A stretch of 33,410 nucleotides of DNA from Flavobacteriales bacterium (lineage in GTDB: Bacteria; Bacteroidota; Bacteroidia; Flavobacteriales_D; Parvicellaceae), in NCBI GenBank assembly GCA_016780365.1, contig JADHMB010000014.1:1-33410 (forward strand). The letters run 5' to 3'. A program made the translations under genes and the position numbers. Positions 1-12,038 of the stretch are shown here, one piece after another. Each line of letters starts with the position of its first letter. The first letter of the stretch is position 1. The notes below the pieces were generated by a model. The model made no database searches. It was not told the DNA's origin and saw nothing but the letters and a program-made list of their open reading frames with translations.

Positions 1-1656
1 GATTGCGGTAGGCTCAAAAATTGTTTTAGGAAAAGATATTTGACAATTATTAGCATCCTTTACCGTTACTAAATAATTACCGTTATCCAATGTGCCAATT
101 GTGTAATCCCCACCATCTAATGAGATTTCATCCCCAATAGGGTCTCCACTAGCTGTTCCGGTCCAACTAACTTGGTATGGGGCAGTTCCCCCAGTTACTG
201 TAACCTCTATTTGGCCATCATTTATCCCTCCATTACAACTAACATCCGTACTTACATTGGTTTGAGATAAAACTGCTGGCTCGTTAATGGTGTGAGAATT
301 AGAATTTAAAATACAACCATTGTTATCAGTTATGGTTAAATCATAATTTCCACCTGAGAGACTACCAATTGAATAACTTCCTCCTGAAGAATTGATTGCA
401 TCACTTTGTGAGCCGATAGCAGCTCCAGTCCAGCTAATGTCATAAGGTGGGTTGCCTCCAGAAACTGTAAGATTTATTGCGCCATTACCATCGCCATTAC
501 ATGTAACGTGTGTTTTGGTATTTGTTTGTGAAAGGGCAACAGGGTTTGTTATAGTAAAAGATTCACTCTCGGTACATCCACCTGCGTCTGTAATTATTAC
601 AGAGTAACTACCAGCGGCTAATGAACTAATTACATAATTTCCTCCATCTGTGTCAATTTCGTCTCCAGCAGGATTTCCAGCTGCGGGACCTGTCCAACTT
701 AAATTGTATGGAGCAAGACCCCCACTGACTGTTATGGTGGAGGTTCCATCACTGGAATTTGAGCAAAGCGTTAGAGTTTCAGAAGATGAAGAAGTTATTG
801 GTGTTGGCGGTGTTAATACTATAGATTCAGAAGCAGTACAGAGATTTACATCTGTAACTGTAACAATATATGTTCCAGTTGGCAAAGTTGCGGTTGTAGT
901 TTGAGTAGTTTGAACGGGCGAAGTGTTCCAAGAATAAGTAAACCCTCCATTTCCACCTGTGGGAACGCTTGTTAGCTGCCCGTCACTTCCTCCACCGCAG
1001 CCCAGAGAAGCAATGTCAGGATTTGGTAATATTACGCTGGGAGTGTCAACAATAAATGTTGAATCAGTTAGACATAAATTGGCATCTGTGACTCTGAACG
1101 TATAAGATCCAAGACCAACAGGGTTAGAAACTGTACTTACAGAACCGTTACCTACCCATTCATAGTTGTATGGAGCTGTCCCACCAGCAATAGTAGCCCT
1201 AATTCTTCCATCAATTTGATCATGGCATGTAGGGTATACTAAAATTTTAGTGACATTACTATTGTTGACAACAATTAGTTCAGCTACGTTAGGTACCTCT
1301 ACTTCAGCTGGAACTGAAATGAAATTGTCATAATCAAAAACACTAATTGTATACAAATTTGCAGATAAATTAGAAAATGCTGTTGGAAATGTATTGGAAA
1401 TGGTTTGGAAAGTTGAATTTAGTGTGACCTCGTAATCTGATGAGCCTGTTACTTCAACTTTAATTTGTGCATCTGAAGCGCCGTTACATGTTATTGCTTT
1501 ACCATTATATTGCTCAAGATAAAAAGTTCTTACTGTAACTGCTCCGTTAGTAAAAGGAGAAGAACCGCTTTCAACCCAAGTCTGAGAAAAATTTTTGTTA
1601 CCTAAAAATAGGAGGGAAACAAGTAAAAACAATAACCTAAATAACCTCATTTGCAT
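1..1656 (-). CDS. SprB-repeat surface adhesin, 5' part only (runs off left edge)
   Basis: This reading frame is open from an ATG at 1656 to the left edge (552 codons seen); a second in-frame ATG lies at 1650. The N terminus (MQMRLFRLLFLLVSLLFLG) is a hydrophobic signal peptide ending near a Gln, as usual for Bacteroidota exported proteins. After an N-terminal region of about 280 residues come at least three consecutive SprB-type repeats of about 88 residues, with recurring motifs such as CNGxxxGxI, GGxxPYxxSWTG, GDEI, YxI and ITDxxGC. SprB repeats occur in giant cell-surface adhesins exported by T9SS, and SprB itself drives gliding. The C terminus, where a sorting domain would be, lies outside the window. 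The PorP/SprF-like gene lies upstream, but a 161-bp gap with its own promoter-like sequence suggests separate transcription. Family assignment is firm; a role in motility is inference. Confidence 0.88.
   Translation of the reverse strand, partial: MQMRLFRLLFLLVSLLFLGNKNFSQTWVESGSSPFTNGAVTVRTFYLEQYNGKAITCNGASDAQIKVEVTGSSDYEVTLNSTFQTISNTFPTAFSNLSANLYTISVFDYDNFISVPAEVEVPNVAELIVVNNSNVTKILVYPTCHDQIDGRIRATIAGGTAPYNYEWVGNGSVSTVSNPVGLGSYTFRVTDANLCLTDSTFIVDTPSVILPNPDIASLGCGGGSDGQLTSVPTGGNGGFTYSWNTSPVQTTQTTTATLPTGTYIVTVTDVNLCTASESIVLTPPTPITSSSSETLTLCSNSSDGTSTITVSGGLAPYNLSWTGPAAGNPAGDEIDTDGGNYVISSLAAGSYSVIITDAGGCTESESFTITNPVALSQTNTKTHVTCNGDGNGAINLTVSGGNPPYDISWTGAAIGSQSDAINSSGGSYSIGSLSGGNYDLTITDNNGCILNSNSHTINEPAVLSQTNVSTDVSCNGGINDGQIEVTVTGGTAPYQVSWTGTASGDPIGDEISLDGGDYTIGTLDNGNYLVTVKDANNCQISFPKTIFEPTAI
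12..805 (-). repeat. Three tandem SprB-type repeats of about 264 bp
   Basis: Three in-frame units, about 541-805, 278-541 and 12-278, each encode 88-89 residues. They share a Cys-Asn-Gly near the start, a GGxxPYxxSWTG core, a GD/SEI-type segment and a closing TDxxGC. The units differ at many bases, so they are old duplications rather than recent copies. More units probably lie beyond the left edge. Confidence 0.8.
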
Positions 1657-1817: not shown

Positions 1818-2747
1818 CTAAAAGAAAGAAATTGTATTTTTATGCTTGTTATTTTCGCTAATTGAGGAAATATAAGATACCATCAACTCATTTGAGTTCA
1901 ATGGCCTTAATAAAATATTGGAAAAAGAAAAATCGTGAGCATAGGAAATTTGCAAATTCTTAGTAAACATAATTTTAAATTGCCCTAAAACAGTATTCTC
2001 ATTTCTTACAGCTATTCCAGTTGATATTATTTCTTTAAAGTCTATTTTTAATCCAGCTATAAGTTTTGGCTTAAATTGTCCTGTAAAATCAAGCATGATA
2101 TTTGGCGTGAAACCAATATTACTCAAAGCTATTTTTTTTGCAGCTATAAATACAATACTAGATTCATTTTGTGATAGGTCACTATTAATAATTTTTTTCC
2201 AGTTGTTTTGAAAAACTTGTTTTGTACTAATTCCAAAAAAATTGTTGTTATTGGTGAGAGCTAAACCCATAGAAAAATCAGGAAATAAGCTGAAGTTTGA
2301 AACATCTACTACTGGATCGTTGGGGTCAAATAAGGTAACACCTGTAACATCTAAACCCAATTGCTGAATCCCAATAAAAGAACCAAAAGATAATCTCCAA
2401 TTAGAACTTAAAAGAAAAGTATAACTGTAAGAAAAATTAATTTTAAAACTTCTAAAGGCTCCAACATTCTCATTTTGAAGAAATCCACCAACATTTGAAA
2501 ATGAAGAAGATTTAACATCTTTTTTGTTCGAGAAAGATGACTGATAACTAAGAAAAGTAGTTTTTGGAGCACCTTCAAACCCAGCCCACTGATTTCGGTA
2601 AATAATATTTAAACTTTTCTTTCCTAAATGAGCAACTGCAGGATTTAAATAAAAAGAATTTTCTAAATAATTTGAGTACTGTAGAGTCTGTTGGCCATGA
2701 TAGCTTACAGAATAAAAAACAACAATAATTAAAAACAGTTTTTTCAC
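1818..2747 (-). CDS. PorP/SprF family outer-membrane protein
   Basis: The 309-residue protein has an N-terminal signal peptide (MKKLFLIIVVFYSVSYHGQ) and then the PorP/SprF hallmark: NPAVAHLGKKSLNIIYRNQW followed by AGFEGAPKTTFLSYQSSF. The rest is rich in alternating beta-strands, consistent with an outer-membrane barrel. Members of this family work with T9SS; SprF is needed for export of SprB, and PorP-like partners usually sit next to a type B sorting-domain protein. Here the start codon is GTG at 2747, overlapping the TGA of the upstream cargo-like gene (GTGA), so the two are translationally coupled. No ATG lies near the signal peptide, which supports GTG. The family is confident; its cognate cargo is inferred from position. 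Confidence 0.9.
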   Translation of the reverse strand: MKKLFLIIVVFYSVSYHGQQTLQYSNYLENSFYLNPAVAHLGKKSLNIIYRNQWAGFEGAPKTTFLSYQSSFSNKKDVKSSSFSNVGGFLQNENVGAFRSFKINFSYSYTFLLSSNWRLSFGSFIGIQQLGLDVTGVTLFDPNDPVVDVSNFSLFPDFSMGLALTNNNNFFGISTKQVFQNNWKKIINSDLSQNESSIVFIAAKKIALSNIGFTPNIMLDFTGQFKPKLIAGLKIDFKEIISTGIAVRNENTVLGQFKIMFTKNLQISYAHDFSFSNILLRPLNSNELMVSYISSISENNKHKNTISFF

Positions 2748-3781
2748 CTTAATAAATTTATTGTTCCTTTAAAAATCTCATTATTTATCTGAGAGCCATT
2801 GTCTAATAGATAAAAATAAGTTCCAGATGGTAATGGCTTTCCGTTGTTACTGCCATCCCATTTTTGAGTATTGCTATAACCAATATTTTGATAGACCTGT
2901 TGTCCCCATTTATTATAAATTTCAACTCTACAAAAAGGATAGTTTTCAATATTTTTAACTGTCCAAAAGTCATTTTTACCATCATTATTTGGTGTTATAG
3001 TATTATAAAAAACTAAAGGGGGCTCCACATAAACTCTTACTATATCTTGGTATTCACATCCGTTTGCATCTGTAACAGTGAGTAGTAAGTCAGTAGTTGA
3101 GTTAGCAGTGAAAAAAGGAGAAAAAGAAGTAGCACTATCCAAAGAAAGACTTGGATACCAATATGGCGTACCATTTCCATAGCCTTGAAGTTGAATTTCA
3201 GAGCCAGGGAATACAAACATGTCTTCACCGGCGTTAATATTAGGTTTGGCACCTATTCCGGATATCTCAATTTGATAAGAGCAAGTTGTTGAAATCGGGA
3301 CTGAATCTAATGAATTATAACCGTCAATTAAAATATAATACTCTTTTTCTGGTAAGAGATTTGGCAATGTCAAATATAAAGAAGAATTCAAAGTGTGACA
3401 GAGGTCAATTATTTCAAACGATTCTGTAGAAAGATTCAAATCTGCATAGATAAAAACAACCTCAATGCTATTTTGAAATAAAAAATTAGAATCTCCAGAA
3501 CATACTATTTGATTGATTAATACATCTACCGATCCTCCACTACTATTGGTAGAGAACTTATACCAAGAAGAATTATCAAGATTAATACAGTTAATTAATG
3601 AATCGAAATTATAATTACTTAAAGAATGCAAAGAATTGGAATAGATGTTGTCGGAAGTAAGAGGTTGCTTAAAGCAAATATGATCAGCATTTTCAAAAAA
3701 ATTATTGGCTCCCACCTGACAAAATAAAATTGTATTCCAAAAGAAATTGAGTAAAAATAAAATCAAAAATTTTCTAAACAT
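2744..3781 (-). CDS. T9SS type B C-terminal-domain surface protein
   Basis: Starting at the ATG at 3781, the protein has 345 residues. It has a signal peptide ending near ILFCQ, a central region with a PKD-like strand pattern (VTDANGCEYQDIVRVYV), and a C-terminal domain of about 90 residues opening with NTITPNNDGKNDFW and including VEIYNKWGQQVY, KWDG and LPSGTYFYLL. That domain is the gliding-motility-associated (type B) sorting signal, which directs export by T9SS. A TTG two codons upstream of nothing else useful (3784) is a poorer start. It is followed by PorP/SprF with a 4-base overlap, the arrangement expected of a cargo and its dedicated outer-membrane partner. The N-terminal half has no domain I recognise. 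Confidence 0.88.
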   Translation of the reverse strand: MFRKFLILFLLNFFWNTILFCQVGANNFFENADHICFKQPLTSDNIYSNSLHSLSNYNFDSLINCINLDNSSWYKFSTNSSGGSVDVLINQIVCSGDSNFLFQNSIEVVFIYADLNLSTESFEIIDLCHTLNSSLYLTLPNLLPEKEYYILIDGYNSLDSVPISTTCSYQIEISGIGAKPNINAGEDMFVFPGSEIQLQGYGNGTPYWYPSLSLDSATSFSPFFTANSTTDLLLTVTDANGCEYQDIVRVYVEPPLVFYNTITPNNDGKNDFWTVKNIENYPFCRVEIYNKWGQQVYQNIGYSNTQKWDGSNNGKPLPSGTYFYLLDNGSQINNEIFKGTINLLR

Positions 3782-3875
3782 CAATGGTGTTAATAATTAG
3801 TTTTTATAAAAAATAATAAAACATTAAATCATGCTATGCTTTAATTTGGCACGATATATGTAAATTTACTAACAT

Positions 3876-6800
3876 ATGATGAAAAACATATTTTTATATA
3901 TAATAGTTTTTTTAACCAATATTTCAGTAGCTCAATATGTTAACTATACTAATGATACTGGGTGGAATTTGGGGTTTAATATAGGTGGAAGCTGGCAAGA
4001 ACCTGAGAGAAAAAATAGTAATTCAGCATTTAGCAATCCCTTTGCAGAGTTTTCCAGGGGATTTACACTAGGTAAGGCTATCTATGAAAAGAAAAATAAA
4101 TTTTTCTCATTTGATCTCAGATTTAGATACCTGAAAGGAAGAAATTCAGGATGGACAGCTACAGCAGATTCGTTTGCGTCACCATATGGCCTTTATGGAA
4201 CGAATTTTATTCTGGATGACTCTATATACGCATACAAAAACTACCAAATGAAATTTAATGAATATACATTTGAGGGAGTATTGACTTTGAATAAATTAAG
4301 AGAAAAAACTGGTCTTATTCTATATGGATTTGGTGGGATTGGCTTAACCTATTACAACATCAACAGAGATATTCTCAATGGAACTTCGGATATAACATTC
4401 ACTGGTGACCCGTACGATTACAGCTCCTTAACATTTATTTCCGACAGACAAACAGCCAGAGATTTAAAAAGATTAAGTGACAACCACTTTGAAACTGAAA
4501 TTGAAACAAATAAATTAAAATTTATGCCTTCTCTAGGTTTTGGAATTGGATATCAATTTAATGAAAGATGGTCTATGGGATTGGAGCATAAAATCACCTA
4601 TGCATTATCCAACAACATAAACGATATTGACAACTCCGAAATAAATGATAGGTACCATTACACTGCACTTAAGCTTAACTTTGATATTTCCTCATATAAA
4701 CCAACTTCATCAAACAATAACCAGTATGTGCCAGAAAGTTCAACACCCATTAATAGTAATCCTCCATTAAATCAAGGCAGGCCTCCCGTAGTTCAGAGAT
4801 TAAATCCAAGTAATAATTTTTATACCACGGAATTGCCAACAATAAATTTTTCAAATTCTATTTTTAACCTTGAGGATGATTTTTCAGCTGGCAGCAATTA
4901 TAATTCAACCAACATAGCCAATATATTTAATATAAATGGAGATGCGCAAAAAATCACAAGCAATGAATTTGTTTTAACTGGGGATTATCAAACTCAGTCT
5001 GGAAATGCATTTACATATAATAAAATAGATTTCTCTCAAGATTTTAAACTAAAGTTTGATGCCAACCTTGGAAGTTTTGATAACGCTGGCGCAGATGGAA
5101 TAGCAATTGTTTTTCATAACGACCCAAGAGGAGTAAATGCATTTGGGCAAAACGGCAAATATATTGGTGCAGGAGGTATCGTTAATGGCATAGTTTTAGA
5201 AATTGACACATATTACAATAGCGAAGTCGATGAAACTTCTAGTGATCATACATCAATTTGGAGAACTGCAAATATAAATGATAAAATATCTTCTGATATT
5301 AGTTTTTCTAACTTAGAAGACGGGGCTTGGCACACAGTTGAAATCAATTGGAATGTATATACTCAGACATTAACCTATACGCTTGATGGCTTTTATGCTG
5401 GCAAAGTTGTTGGAGATCTTACAAATAAATATTTTGGAGGTTCTAGTTCCGTTTATTACGGATATACTGCCTCAACAGGATATTACTTCAATACTCAAAA
5501 AATAAGATTTGAGAATAAAGAACTCAATAATATAAGTGAGATTTCAAATAGAGAATATTTACCTAGGTCCGATATTGAATTTTCAGTAAATGGGATTGGT
5601 TCCAAAAATTACCGTTTTAAAAATGATATTCTATATTCTAACATAAATTTATCCCCGGGAGAAAATATTGTTAGAGTCCGAGGAATTAACCAGTATGGAA
5701 GTGATTTTAAAACCACTACTATATATTATAATACTCCGTCTTTACAAAAGCCGCCCACTGTTAAAATTACAGTGCCAAATACTTCTCCATATATTTCTAG
5801 CGCTCCATATTCCGCAATTCATGCTTCTATATTAAATATTGAAAACAGAAGTCAAATAACATTTAAAATAAATGGTGAAAGAATTTATAACTTCTCTTTC
5901 AATGGTGAATACTTTAGCGCTAATAATATTCCGCTAAATAATGGCAACAATATATTTCAAATTTCTGCTTCCAACAACCACGGTTATGCTAGTGATGAGA
6001 CCATTATTTTTTATTCTTCTCCTCTTCCCAAGCCAATGGTAGATATTACCACTCCTTATACTAACCCTTATAACTCTGTCAACTCAACTACCAACTTGAG
6101 GGCTACCATTTTAAATGTAGAAAATAAATACAATATTGAATTTTACATCAATGGAAACAGGTCCTATGGATTCGATTTTTCAGCAACACAATTTGAAGCA
6201 AAATCAATAAGCTTATTCCCAGGAAAAAATAGAATAAGAATTGTAGGAAAAAATAGTGTGGGATTAGCAGAAGACAATACAACCATAATCTACAATAATT
6301 CTACATTGCCAAAGCCATTAGTAAACATAACTAGTCCAGGCAAAAACCCATATGTTTCTAATAATAACAAAACCAATATATACGCTGATGTGATAAACGT
6401 ATTGAACAGTGCAGATATTTTATTTTATGTCAATAATATTAAAAACACAAACTTTACATTTTATAGAAACAAGTTTGAAGCAGTAGGAGTATTGCTCAAA
6501 ACAGGAAAGAATTATATAAAAATTGTTGGGGCTAATAACCAAGGCTCTAGTTTTGACGAAACTATTATAATATATAAACCCCCAACATTCCCTCTTCCTA
6601 TGGTGAGGTTTACCAGCCCAAGCAAAAGCCCTTCTGAATTAGAATCTAGATTTATAAAAGTAGATGCTAATATATTAAATGTAGTAGGAAAAAATAACAT
6701 CACATTTTCTGTAAATGGAGACCTATTAACAAATTTTAATTTTTCAGGAAATAAATTTGTTGCTAATAATGTTGTATTGAAAAACGGAAAAAATATTATT

Positions 6801-8264
6801 CGCATAAAAGGCCAAAACAACCAAGGTTATGCTACAGATGAAAGTATTGTTTTTTACAAACCAGTAGTAACTCCAAAACCAAACGTGAAGATAACAAGCC
6901 CTGGGCAAAGCCCATTTAATTCTCCATCCTTATATGTTAATATAAGAGCTACCATTTTAAATGTATCCTCTGCTAACAACGTCACATTTAAATTGAACGG
7001 AGTATTACATAATAACTTTACATTTTCCGGAAATATTTTTGAAGCAAATAATATTTTGATAAAAGAAGGTAACAATACAGTAAATATATCGGGGAAAAAC
7101 AGCGCAGGAGTTGATTCTGACCAAACAATAATTTCGTTTAAAAAACCAGCTCAAAATAAACCCCCTAAAATCGTAGTTTCATACCCGTCCAATCCGAGAT
7201 TTAATACCAACAATAAAATGATTTTAATAAGTGGGCAAATACAGAATGTTGAGAATTCTAATAACGTAAGTGTGACTATGAACGGAAATGCTGTAAAAAA
7301 CTTCCTGTTTGATACTTATTTTGATGATTTTCAATGTGAACTCCAATTGCAAAATGGATTAAATATTTTCAATATAAAAGCATTTAATAATGACGGAAAA
7401 GATGAAAGTATAGTCTCCATAGAATATGCTGCTATTGAATGTAAGAATCCTATTATCAATTTAAAAAGCCCCAATAGCAATAGTGTAACAGCTAGTAGTT
7501 CTAGAGGGTATATCAGTGCAGTGATTAATAATACACAAAATGTAATATTTAAAATTGATGGTGTAGCTTCTCAGGGATTTAATTTTAATGTGAATAATGG
7601 TGTGTTTTCTTCGATGATAAATTTATCTCCAGGAACTCATGACTATGAAATTAATGCATTTAATACTTGTGGATCTTCAAGTGAAGTTATTAGTTTTACC
7701 TATGGAAATCTACCAAACAATGGGGAAAATAACAATGAAGAGAAGGAATTAAATGAAGAAACAAAAGAAGAGCAAACAGGTATAAAAGAAGAAGATAATG
7801 AGGGTGATGAAAAAGAAGAAGATAATGAAAAAGAGGAAGATAAGGAAAAGAGCATAAATGAAGAGAAAATGCTTTTGGAACTAAAACAAAAAAAGGCTAT
7901 TCTAGAAGCGCAAAAAAGAAAACAACAGCAAGAACAACAAGCTGCCGAAGCACAAAGAAGAAAACAACAGCAAGAACAACAAGCTGCTGAAGCACAAAGA
8001 AGAAAACAACAGCAAGAACAACAAGCTGCCGAAGCACAAAGAAGAAAAGAACAACAAGCTGCCGAGGAACAACAAGCTGCTGAAGCACAAAGAAGAAAAG
8101 AGGAAAAACAAGCTGCTGAGGAAAAACAAGCTGCTGAAGCACAAAGAAGAAAAGAGGAAAAACAAAAAGAACAGGCACGGCTAAAAAAACAAGCAGCAGA
8201 AAAGAAAAAGGCTGAAGCAGCGAAAGCAAAACAGACGAGTAATAAAAAAACTGGTGGTAAGTAA
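3876..8264 (+). CDS. Multidomain barrel-lectin-Ig-repeat protein with TolA-like C-terminal helix
   Basis: This 1462-residue protein has five visible regions. Residues 1-19 are a signal peptide. Residues about 20-271 are strand-rich with aromatic girdles and end in LKLNFDISSY, like a Bacteroidota outer-membrane beta-barrel. Residues about 324-550 form an L-type (legume-like) lectin domain with GADGIAIVFHNDPRG, EIDTYYN and DHTSIW, the usual metal- and sugar-site region. Residues about 555-1280 hold one partial and seven full Ig-like repeats of about 94 residues (pattern KPxVxITxP...NV...FxxNG...GxNxIxIxGxN). Residues about 1285-1325 are highly acidic, and about 1330-1462 are a Lys/Gln/Ala/Arg/Glu helix like that of TolA. 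There is no T9SS sorting domain at the end. The start has two adjacent ATGs (3876, 3879). Function and topology are unknown; carbohydrate binding is inferred from the lectin fold. It stands alone between a divergent gene and convergent pdxA. Confidence 0.85.
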   Translation: MMKNIFLYIIVFLTNISVAQYVNYTNDTGWNLGFNIGGSWQEPERKNSNSAFSNPFAEFSRGFTLGKAIYEKKNKFFSFDLRFRYLKGRNSGWTATADSFASPYGLYGTNFILDDSIYAYKNYQMKFNEYTFEGVLTLNKLREKTGLILYGFGGIGLTYYNINRDILNGTSDITFTGDPYDYSSLTFISDRQTARDLKRLSDNHFETEIETNKLKFMPSLGFGIGYQFNERWSMGLEHKITYALSNNINDIDNSEINDRYHYTALKLNFDISSYKPTSSNNNQYVPESSTPINSNPPLNQGRPPVVQRLNPSNNFYTTELPTINFSNSIFNLEDDFSAGSNYNSTNIANIFNINGDAQKITSNEFVLTGDYQTQSGNAFTYNKIDFSQDFKLKFDANLGSFDNAGADGIAIVFHNDPRGVNAFGQNGKYIGAGGIVNGIVLEIDTYYNSEVDETSSDHTSIWRTANINDKISSDISFSNLEDGAWHTVEINWNVYTQTLTYTLDGFYAGKVVGDLTNKYFGGSSSVYYGYTASTGYYFNTQKIRFENKELNNISEISNREYLPRSDIEFSVNGIGSKNYRFKNDILYSNINLSPGENIVRVRGINQYGSDFKTTTIYYNTPSLQKPPTVKITVPNTSPYISSAPYSAIHASILNIENRSQITFKINGERIYNFSFNGEYFSANNIPLNNGNNIFQISASNNHGYASDETIIFYSSPLPKPMVDITTPYTNPYNSVNSTTNLRATILNVENKYNIEFYINGNRSYGFDFSATQFEAKSISLFPGKNRIRIVGKNSVGLAEDNTTIIYNNSTLPKPLVNITSPGKNPYVSNNNKTNIYADVINVLNSADILFYVNNIKNTNFTFYRNKFEAVGVLLKTGKNYIKIVGANNQGSSFDETIIIYKPPTFPLPMVRFTSPSKSPSELESRFIKVDANILNVVGKNNITFSVNGDLLTNFNFSGNKFVANNVVLKNGKNIIRIKGQNNQGYATDESIVFYKPVVTPKPNVKITSPGQSPFNSPSLYVNIRATILNVSSANNVTFKLNGVLHNNFTFSGNIFEANNILIKEGNNTVNISGKNSAGVDSDQTIISFKKPAQNKPPKIVVSYPSNPRFNTNNKMILISGQIQNVENSNNVSVTMNGNAVKNFLFDTYFDDFQCELQLQNGLNIFNIKAFNNDGKDESIVSIEYAAIECKNPIINLKSPNSNSVTASSSRGYISAVINNTQNVIFKIDGVASQGFNFNVNNGVFSSMINLSPGTHDYEINAFNTCGSSSEVISFTYGNLPNNGENNNEEKELNEETKEEQTGIKEEDNEGDEKEEDNEKEEDKEKSINEEKMLLELKQKKAILEAQKRKQQQEQQAAEAQRRKQQQEQQAAEAQRRKQQQEQQAAEAQRRKEQQAAEEQQAAEAQRRKEEKQAAEEKQAAEAQRRKEEKQKEQARLKKQAAEKKKAEAAKAKQTSNKKTGGK
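5751..7715 (+). repeat. Seven tandem Ig-like repeats of about 285 bp
   Basis: Seven in-frame units begin near 5751, 6025, 6303, 6591, 6874, 7159 and 7435. Units 1-5 are the closest relatives, each opening with a Pro-rich KPxVxIT-type strand followed by a SPxxxP-like turn, NV, an FxxNG hairpin, FxA/NN and GxNxIxIxGxNxxG. Units 6 and 7 are diverged, and a half unit precedes unit 1 (about 5540-5740). The units differ enough at DNA level that recent copying is not evident. Confidence 0.75.
7917..8147 (+). repeat. 42-bp coding minisatellite and its expanded variants
   Basis: Three units of 42 bp (7917-7958, 7959-8000, 8001-8042) each encode RKQQQEQQAAEAQR and differ only at a GCC/GCT codon. Two longer variants follow, 51 bp (8043-8093) and 54 bp (8094-8147), encoding RKEQQAAEEQQAAEAQR and RKEEKQAAEEKQAAEAQR. 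All lengths are multiples of three, so unit loss or gain changes helix length without a frameshift. Near-identity of the copies indicates recent expansion. Confidence 0.92.
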
Positions 8265-9380: not shown

Positions 9381-12038
9381 ATGTTAATTAGAGCTTTTAA
9401 CTTTTTGTTTTTATTAATCCCCATATTTATTTGGGGCTCTCACAACAGAGGGGGTGAAATAACCTACACCCATATTGGAGGTCTAACTTATGAATTTACC
9501 ATTACCACATGTACTGATTTGGGGTCGGTGACCGGAACAGATAGACCAGAACTATTCTTAGACTTTGATTTAGGGACTCCGTTCGCACAAAGAGATACTC
9601 TTTTAAGAACCTCCCAAGTCCCATTATCCCTTAGCCACAAAAAAAATATTTATGTTGGCACACATACTTTTACTTCCACAGGATCTCATAGAATAACTAT
9701 GGAAGACCCCAATAGAAATGCAGGAATTTTAAATGTTTGGCCTAATGGGAATAGTGACGATGTAGTTTTTGCATTAGAGACTTTCTTGATAATTTCTCCT
9801 GTTTTAGGAGCTTCTGGTGGAAACAACTCTGTTCAGTTTACAGAATGTCCATGCCCTGCGGTAGGATGTTTGAATAGGCCTTACTGTTACAACCCCATGG
9901 CTTACGACCCAGATGGAGATTCTTTATCTTATGAGTTGGTAGCTCCATTAGGCCAAGATGCACTTCCTTTGCTATTTGGAAATTATTATGTTTTCCCAGA
10001 TGCAATTGGAGGAGGTAATTTTACTATTGATCCGGTTTTTGGGACTGTATGCTGGAACAATCCGTTGATGGTTGGTGAATTTAATTTTACCATTTTGATA
10101 TCCGAATGGAGAAATGGCTATAAAATAGGTTCTGTTATTAGAGATGTTCAACTAACAATAAAAAATAACTGCACCAATAACCCCCCAGATATCGCCCCTA
10201 TTAGTGATACTTGTGTAAAAGCAGGAAGCACACTAAATATTAACATTCAAGGCACAGACCAAGATTCAGATTTTATTACTCTAATAACTGCAGGACTTTC
10301 TTTTAATTTAAATAACTCTCCATCCACTTTTTCGTCTGTTGCTACTAGTGGTATTGCCAACGGAATATTACAGTGGAATACAAATTGTAGTCATATTCAA
10401 CAATCTTCTTACCCAATATTAGTAGAACTGGAAGACAATGGAAATCCAGTTCTATCGGATTATGAATCTTTTAATATTGCCGTTAGACCTCCAGCGATAA
10501 CTGGGTTAATTGCATCTCCAATTGGAAACTCTATTCATTTAAAATGGGATAAAGCCATTTGCTCCAACGCATTAGGATACAATATTTATAAAAAATTAGG
10601 GTCTATAAATACATTTGAAGAATGTTGTCAACCCCCTAATTTATCAAGCTTTGGCGTGACCCTTATTCATCAAAGCTCTTCTAACAGCGACACTACTTAC
10701 ATAGACTTTGATTCTCTCGAAATTGGGAACTCATATTGTTATTTTGTAACCGGAATATATGATTTTGGTCAACTTGAAAGTTGTCCTTCTGATACAGCAT
10801 GTTCAACACTAAAAAAAGAAGTAGCAGTTATGACCAATGTAAGTGTTGTGAAAACAGACTCTATTGTAGGAATAGATTCTATTAATTGGATTAACCCAAC
10901 AGAACTAGACACAAATCAATACCAAGGCCCCTATCACTACGAAATTACCAACAGTAATGGAAATATAATTCATCAATTTTCTCCAAAAAACTACTTATAT
11001 GAACTAGAAAATAGCTACAGCAATTTAAACATAAATACTGTTGATACCAACAGAATATATAAGGTTGGACTTCATTATACTTATTTAAATTCTGATAGTC
11101 TTATCGGATATAGCAATCCTGCTACAAGTGTTCATCTTAGAACCATTCCAAACGATAACCAAATAGAACTTTTTTGGAATGAAAATGTGCCATGGAATAA
11201 TAATATGTATTTTATTTTTAGAAGCGACTCCATAGATGGTAATTATACTTTAATTGACTCTACTATTGGTAACTATTTTTTAGACTCTGGATTGATCAAT
11301 AGAATACAATATTGCTATTTTATTAAATCGATTGGAGAATATTCAGACCCTTCAATAATAAGTCCATTGATTAATCTTTCTCAAAAAGCATGTGATGTAC
11401 CTTTTGACTATACACCACCTTGTCCTCCAGCATTAACTTTACAAGGAGATTGTGATTTGGAAATAAACACTTTAAATTGGACTAATCCGAACAATTCTTG
11501 CTCTGATGATGCTGTATCCTACTCCTTATATTTTACACCATTTTTGGATAGTGCATATTCACTAATTAATTTCTTTGACAATATTGAAGACACAACATTT
11601 CAGCACCAAAATCAATACAACGGAGTAAATTCTATAGCGGGGTGCTATTATTTAACAGCTACAGATTCCATGATTTACAACAATGAAAGTTTACCAAGTG
11701 ACACAGTATGCTTTGACAATTGCCCAAACTATGTATTTCCTAATATTTTTACTCCAAACGGGGACGGAGTTAACGATTATTTCCAAGCCATAATGCCAAT
11801 TAAGTACATAGACAAAATAGAATTATATATTTTAAATCGTTGGGGAGAAGTTGTTTTCAAAACAACAGATCCTGAGTTTTTATGGGACGGAACTGCAAGT
11901 GAAACACAACAAGATTGTCCAAGCGGGACCTACTACTTTCAATGTTTGGTTAGTAGTATTAGACTATTTGGAATTGAGACAATAGAACTTAATGGCCATC
12001 TACAACTTACAAGAAAAAACATATCAAATAATCAATAA
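9381..12038 (+). CDS. Large T9SS type B surface protein with fibronectin-III-like domains
   Basis: The 885-residue protein starts with a signal peptide (MLIRAFNFLFLLIPIFIWG) and then SHNRGGEITYTHIGGLTYEF, an N-terminal module common in Bacteroidota gliding-associated proteins. A cadherin/PKD-like stretch follows (FTIDPVFGTVCWNNP; IQGTDQDSDFI). At least two fibronectin type III-like domains are suggested by IHLKWDKAICSNALGYNIYK (about 390) and IELFWNENVPWNNNMYFIFR (about 595). The last 100 residues (about 784-885) are a type B sorting domain: NIFTPNGDGVNDYFQA, IELYILNRWGEVVFK, FLWDGT, CPSGTYYFQC. It is cysteine-rich for a surface protein. It abuts ribE with no spacing (TAAATG). No PorP/SprF gene is beside it, so its export partner must be elsewhere. 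Its ligand is not evident. Confidence 0.88.
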   Translation: MLIRAFNFLFLLIPIFIWGSHNRGGEITYTHIGGLTYEFTITTCTDLGSVTGTDRPELFLDFDLGTPFAQRDTLLRTSQVPLSLSHKKNIYVGTHTFTSTGSHRITMEDPNRNAGILNVWPNGNSDDVVFALETFLIISPVLGASGGNNSVQFTECPCPAVGCLNRPYCYNPMAYDPDGDSLSYELVAPLGQDALPLLFGNYYVFPDAIGGGNFTIDPVFGTVCWNNPLMVGEFNFTILISEWRNGYKIGSVIRDVQLTIKNNCTNNPPDIAPISDTCVKAGSTLNINIQGTDQDSDFITLITAGLSFNLNNSPSTFSSVATSGIANGILQWNTNCSHIQQSSYPILVELEDNGNPVLSDYESFNIAVRPPAITGLIASPIGNSIHLKWDKAICSNALGYNIYKKLGSINTFEECCQPPNLSSFGVTLIHQSSSNSDTTYIDFDSLEIGNSYCYFVTGIYDFGQLESCPSDTACSTLKKEVAVMTNVSVVKTDSIVGIDSINWINPTELDTNQYQGPYHYEITNSNGNIIHQFSPKNYLYELENSYSNLNINTVDTNRIYKVGLHYTYLNSDSLIGYSNPATSVHLRTIPNDNQIELFWNENVPWNNNMYFIFRSDSIDGNYTLIDSTIGNYFLDSGLINRIQYCYFIKSIGEYSDPSIISPLINLSQKACDVPFDYTPPCPPALTLQGDCDLEINTLNWTNPNNSCSDDAVSYSLYFTPFLDSAYSLINFFDNIEDTTFQHQNQYNGVNSIAGCYYLTATDSMIYNNESLPSDTVCFDNCPNYVFPNIFTPNGDGVNDYFQAIMPIKYIDKIELYILNRWGEVVFKTTDPEFLWDGTASETQQDCPSGTYYFQCLVSSIRLFGIETIELNGHLQLTRKNISNNQ

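Follow-up and report, generated by a model that had tools for sequence, protein, structure and literature searches.

A family of flavobacterial proteins with an OmpA-like barrel, a long array of Ig-like domains and, in one genus, a nested L-type lectin

We describe a flavobacterial protein in which a predicted OmpA-like outer-membrane barrel is followed by an array of Ig-like domains, the first of which is interrupted by an L-type lectin. Judging by sequence comparison, the barrel with 6-21 Ig copies defines an order-wide family, and the lectin alone is special to the genus from which the window (the whole stretch of DNA that was analysed, 33,410 nucleotides) was derived. A preliminary description of this DNA knew of no described system with the same order of domains; the combination of barrel and Ig array is no one-off, being found across the order, but the lectin does set this genus apart. 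Each of the parts is known; what we have not found described is one conserved family that couples an OmpA-like barrel to a long Ig array of predicted periplasmic location, with an L-type lectin nested in it, and searches of the open-access literature returned no description of the architecture that joins all three. The family, in which an OmpA-like barrel holds an Ig-like chain, is widespread in marine and other flavobacteria and is apparently undescribed. We give about an even chance to the interpretation that these proteins are outer-membrane-anchored periplasmic rods that act as an anchor or scaffold tied to a surface-adhesin module.

Domain architecture

The window belongs to a 1.97-Mb assembly of 94 contigs that is 86% complete, and its close relatives appear in public data under the labels uncultured Flavobacteriales and Bacteroidetes bacterium MED-G20. 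The open reading frame at 3876-8264 (+) encodes 1462 amino acids with no internal stops, arranged as a signal peptide, barrel, linker, Ig domains with the lectin, acidic segment and charged tail; all features of this protein given below lie on the + strand. The signal peptide, read from the translation (residues 1-19, MMKNIFLYIIVFLTNISVA, followed by Q; 3876..3932), is kept in relatives, and the mature protein mostly starts with Q. Pfam searches of the 1462-aa protein yielded the lectin (PF18483, residues 343-546) and weak Ig-type matches, with no match to a peptidoglycan-binding domain, PF00691 included; a T9SS sorting domain of type A or B was absent by Pfam and NCBIfam, in agreement with the preliminary description.

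The N-terminal domain (residues 20-272; 3933..4691) was assigned by AF2, Foldseek and profile searches as an OmpA-like 8-stranded outer-membrane barrel. The AF2 model (residues ~27-272), built with 36 homologues, contains eight strands (mean pLDDT 85.2, pTM 0.81), and its best matches among solved structures in the PDB are OmpA barrels (Foldseek, E 8e-8), which supports the earlier reading of an N-terminal barrel and its assumption of a membrane location and an even strand number. The lengths of the predicted outer loops vary with a standard deviation of 2.8-4.8 residues, compared with 0-0.23 in the inner turns, and conservation within the domain peaks in the inner turn NKLREKTG. Aligned, the 36 family barrels have a mean column identity of 42%; PF13505 is matched by 17 of them, the window barrel scoring under the curated cut-off. 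The PorG profile NF052316 is matched by 29 of the 36, below the cut-off (26.1 bits for the window barrel against a curated cut-off of 130); a separate, true PorG is encoded in the same genome (148.7 bits), and matches to this profile were detected in every genome searched, over the cut-off in 36 of 40. Given that the family barrels fall far under the cut-off and that every genome searched contains PorG-profile matches, we rejected membership in the PorG family. By prediction, the two share an 8-stranded barrel of the same wider superfamily and a periplasmic C-tail, but the proteins described here have a giant Ig tail in place of the short cysteine tail of the PorG type, with no cysteine found in the window protein after residue 1278. 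OmpA, the best structural match, also combines an N-terminal 8-stranded barrel with a C-terminal part that is periplasmic, here by prediction; unlike OmpA, which has a peptidoglycan-binding domain, the window protein has an Ig array, a lectin and a basic tail.

Following a low-complexity linker (residues 273-302; 4692..4781), the equivalent of which has a pLDDT of 35-38 in a model of the lectin-less orthologue L034, a profile built on second Ig domains taken from 21 relatives detects eight Ig-like domains, seven whole (i-E 1e-15 to 7e-28) and one split. The whole ones are domains 2-8 (residues 626-1278; 5751..7709). The start of domain 1 (residues 303-338; 4782..4889) matches profile positions 1-36 when the lectin is removed (i-E 2e-4 to 4e-4); with the lectin kept in, the match covers positions 1-60 and reaches residue 363. 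The remainder of the domain (residues 564-624; 5565..5747) matches positions 33-95 (i-E 2.5e-16). By these profile matches, the lectin (residues 343-546; 4902..5513) is an insertion within Ig domain 1 and does not stand as a module of its own between barrel and array. The preliminary description had counted seven Ig-like repeats preceded by a lectin module; both array and lectin are real, but the domains number eight and the first is split by the lectin. The modelled tandem Ig domains of L034 match titin Ig pairs.

The assignment of the legume-type lectin itself is borne out by PF18483 (E 7e-44; 150.7 bits against a gathering cut-off of 78.3) and by the bacterial L-type lectin of PDB entry 7elv (E 7e-18), and the predicted metal- and sugar-site residues are kept, namely the GADG Asp, ExDxYxN and the DH motif. 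These likenesses in family and site residues notwithstanding, the window lectin differs from 7elv and other PF18483 members in being nested in an Ig domain of a protein predicted to be anchored in the outer membrane.

Phyletic distribution

A search of 100 relatives showed that the barrel with the Ig array is widely present, without the lectin. The barrel is found, as a single copy, in 49 of the 100 (barrel-profile matches at E 1e-25 or better, a truncated copy in G008 included). It is present in all sampled members of families f8, f10, f11 and f13 and in 23 of the 39 members of the window's own family, its own genome counted; at E 1e-25 the profile found no match in the sampled members of f2-f7, f9 and f12. 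Full loci encode proteins of ~1,100-2,560 aa in which a signal peptide precedes a barrel of ~250 aa, and 6-21 Ig copies can be detected in them. A correlation with gliding was uninformative, GldJ being found in 99 of the 100 relatives. The copy in the same-genus genome G010 (L035 5432-9304), ~93-95% identical, is split into several frames with stops, through either decay or assembly error.

In a phylum-wide sample of 247 genomes, only four others match the barrel at E 1e-20, all of the same class, and a barrel search of public genome contigs matched only two contigs, both of the same genus. Beyond the order, homologous barrels (E 3e-30 to 5e-24 with the barrel profile) are followed by an OmpA domain, PF00691, over the cut-off in two of three. 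These three proteins (L132 6676-8280, L133 5626-7320 and L134 6125-7792; ~535-565 aa) have TSP_3-like repeats between the barrel and the C-terminal OmpA domain; a fourth distant homologue, L131, consists of a barrel with an Ig array.

Within the barrel-Ig family, the lectin is present only in the window's genus. In the same-genus genome G009, Ig domain 1 is whole and the lectin is absent; 13 additional residues are left, QDDFSASSNYNST, matching those that lead into the lectin in the copies that have it. The lectin is carried by G008, which is more distant by Ig-region sequence (77% compared with 91%), and its start is present before the contig end in G003, which the barrel tree places as sister to G009 (97/94); given these two observations, the simpler reading is that the lectin was lost again in G009. 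Lectins found elsewhere in the order show 27-35% identity and lie within large open frames; several of these frames have T9SS-type sequence at their end, suggesting that the usual home of such a lectin is probably outside the cell.

Genomic context

The gene is divergent from a gene for a T9SS type B substrate (CHU_C/TIGR04131, by Pfam and NCBIfam; 346 aa; 2744..3784, -), which is adjoined by the gene for a PorP/SprF-type carrier (1818..2747, -; PF11751 E 4e-49, TIGR03519) and followed by a gene for an SprB-repeat protein that runs off the window (1..1656, -; PF13573, six stretches). On the other side, beyond pdxA, lies the gene for a second T9SS type B protein (885 aa; 9381-12038, +), identified by its sorting domain match; secreted proteins with a T9SS sorting domain are thus encoded at both 2744-3784 and 9381-12038. 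The 885-aa protein occupies the same place in several relatives from the family.

As in the window, the barrel-Ig gene is divergent from an adjacent type B substrate gene in 22 of 43 further loci of the family, all of them with an upstream stretch of 1.5 kb or more, and in 21 of the 43 PorP/SprF adjoins the divergent substrate gene; the frameshifted G010 copy, which is in two pieces, entered this count once. This pairing is conserved in four families of the order, which suggests a role as anchor or scaffold for the adhesin module. About half of the family loci lack an adjacent substrate/PorP pair, and in the same-genus genomes G001 and G004 pdxA and the type B substrate gene flank a site from which the barrel-Ig gene is cleanly missing (L095 5628-6659/6613-7698; L096 5921-6916/6927-8006), so the partnership is not obligatory. 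Co-occurrence with the type B neighbour, traced through its N-terminal part, was discarded as a measure of association because the matches are weak and widespread, and G001 and G004 have the neighbour without the rod gene.

Type B substrates remain bound to dedicated carrier proteins (PMC12635249). Type B adhesins need a hold inside the envelope, for which the proposals include SprF-GldK disulfides and PorE. The order-wide, single-copy Ig-rod family, whose genes often lie beside those of a type B substrate and PorP, is a further candidate for this hold. The rods resemble the proposed substrate-PorP-PorE complexes anchored to the cell wall (PMC12618676) in that their genes are partnered with those of a type B substrate and PorP/SprF, and in their predicted position from the outer membrane to the periplasm; they differ from PorE in architecture, and no homology was seen. 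The C-tail of the PorP/SprF-type carrier (1818-2747, -) is without cysteine here, in three same-genus relatives and in L104, L065 and L074 (cysteine-less entries: the window, L095, L096, L103, L104, L065 and L074); each of the remaining PorP tails examined retains two. SprF of F. johnsoniae is bonded to GldK through tail cysteines of this kind (PMC12635249).

Predicted topology and possible functions

Eight strands after a signal peptide would place both ends of the barrel in the periplasm, and the residues that follow it would face the periplasm, as the preliminary description had reasoned for an even number of strands. Eight strands were again predicted in a second model, comprising the barrel, linker and two Ig domains, in which the linker has no confident structure; this model was built on L034, an alignment mixing lectins with Ig domains having misaligned. 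The OmpA domain (PF00691) is periplasmic and binds peptidoglycan. Together, the even strand number, the indels in the outer loops and the OmpA domain on distant barrel homologues make a periplasmic location of the lectin, Ig rod and tail most likely, and a linker threaded through the barrel to the surface less likely. The barrel would thus sit in the outer membrane with its long loops outside, the Ig-like domains would form a rod beneath it, and the basic low-complexity tail at the end of the rod may contact the cell wall or another periplasmic partner. In the window's genus, the lectin would loop out of Ig domain 1 right under the membrane, an unusual place for a lectin, as had been remarked earlier, and could bind a periplasmic sugar, for example, cell-wall glycan or a glycoprotein. 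The suggestion that the protein links envelope layers finds its best reading in an outer-membrane-anchored periplasmic linker, which may serve as the anchor or scaffold of the type B substrate and PorP/SprF module. A periplasmic rod is favoured by the TPR-type repeats that some relatives have close to their C terminus and by the lack of a T9SS sorting domain; against it stand the missing peptidoglycan-binding domain in the window protein and the T9SS-type frames of the lectin's nearest kin. An Ig domain is ~4 nm long, so that the 21-Ig relatives, at roughly 80 nm if straight, exceed the width of the periplasm and must lie flat or bend. A further extension, by analogy with the luminal L-type lectins that handle glycoproteins in the eukaryotic secretory pathway, would have the lectin capture glycan strands or glycosylated proteins within the envelope, to be passed on to, or anchored at, the neighbouring T9SS module; we regard this as quite improbable.

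A general OmpA-type envelope stabiliser, that is, a rod that tethers the outer membrane to the cell wall mechanically with no special tie to the T9SS module, would fit the OmpA fold of the barrel, the peptidoglycan-binding domain of its distant homologues and the absence of the adjacent T9SS pair from about half of the family loci. We consider it rather unlikely, given that the divergent pairing is conserved in four families and that the window protein has no recognisable cell-wall-binding domain. Still less probable is a surface adhesin of the inverse-autotransporter type, in which the chain would pass back through the barrel to display the Ig domains and lectin at the surface. The gross order, with a barrel at the N terminus and then Ig domains and a lectin-like domain, is that of intimin and invasin (type Ve), very long Ig arrays would suit the outside, and similar lectins of the order otherwise occur in apparently secreted proteins. 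Intimin-type barrels, however, have 12 strands, as opposed to the eight predicted here, which leave little pore; the linker has no confident structure in the L034 model, the homologous barrels carry a periplasmic OmpA domain, and the lectin of intimin and invasin has another fold and is displayed on the surface.

The preliminary description also noted an acidic segment (residues ~1285-1330; 7728..7865, from the sequence) and a charged, helix-forming Ala/Gln/Lys tail, both of which are present; the tail (residues ~1331-1452; 7866..8231) is rich in Ala, Gln, Lys, Arg and Glu. A TolA-like element in which this helix would span the periplasm to the inner membrane and transmit force is very unlikely. 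In its favour are ~120 residues of charged helix-forming sequence and the Ala/Lys-rich tails of L038, L046 and L047; against it, the region is built of tandem repeats of 42 bp and 54 bp (TRF, 7905-8165), same-genus orthologues have shorter tails of variable length, those of most relatives are non-helical and rich in Ser, Thr, Pro and Lys, and the 1462-aa protein, which starts with a signal peptide and barrel, has no Pfam match to a TolA domain. The helix, whose conservation had been proposed as the check on its role, is thus not conserved and is a tandem-repeat expansion, the recurring feature being a basic tail. The mean net charge of the last 30 residues is +5.1 in the family, compared with +0.5 in 100 control ORFs. 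The window protein has a basic end, ..TSNKKTGGK (8232..8261), of a kind common in the family: a G[GR]?[KR]-like C-terminal end occurs in 24 of 34 members and in 1 of the 100 control ORFs, a contrast somewhat flattered by the choice of the motif after viewing the sequences. Near the C terminus, some members contain repeated CHIPPGN...AHGD.LG.C units (L039, L052) or a Cys-containing CGPRFNPG...CL.TP.GT domain (L044, L046, L047, L050).
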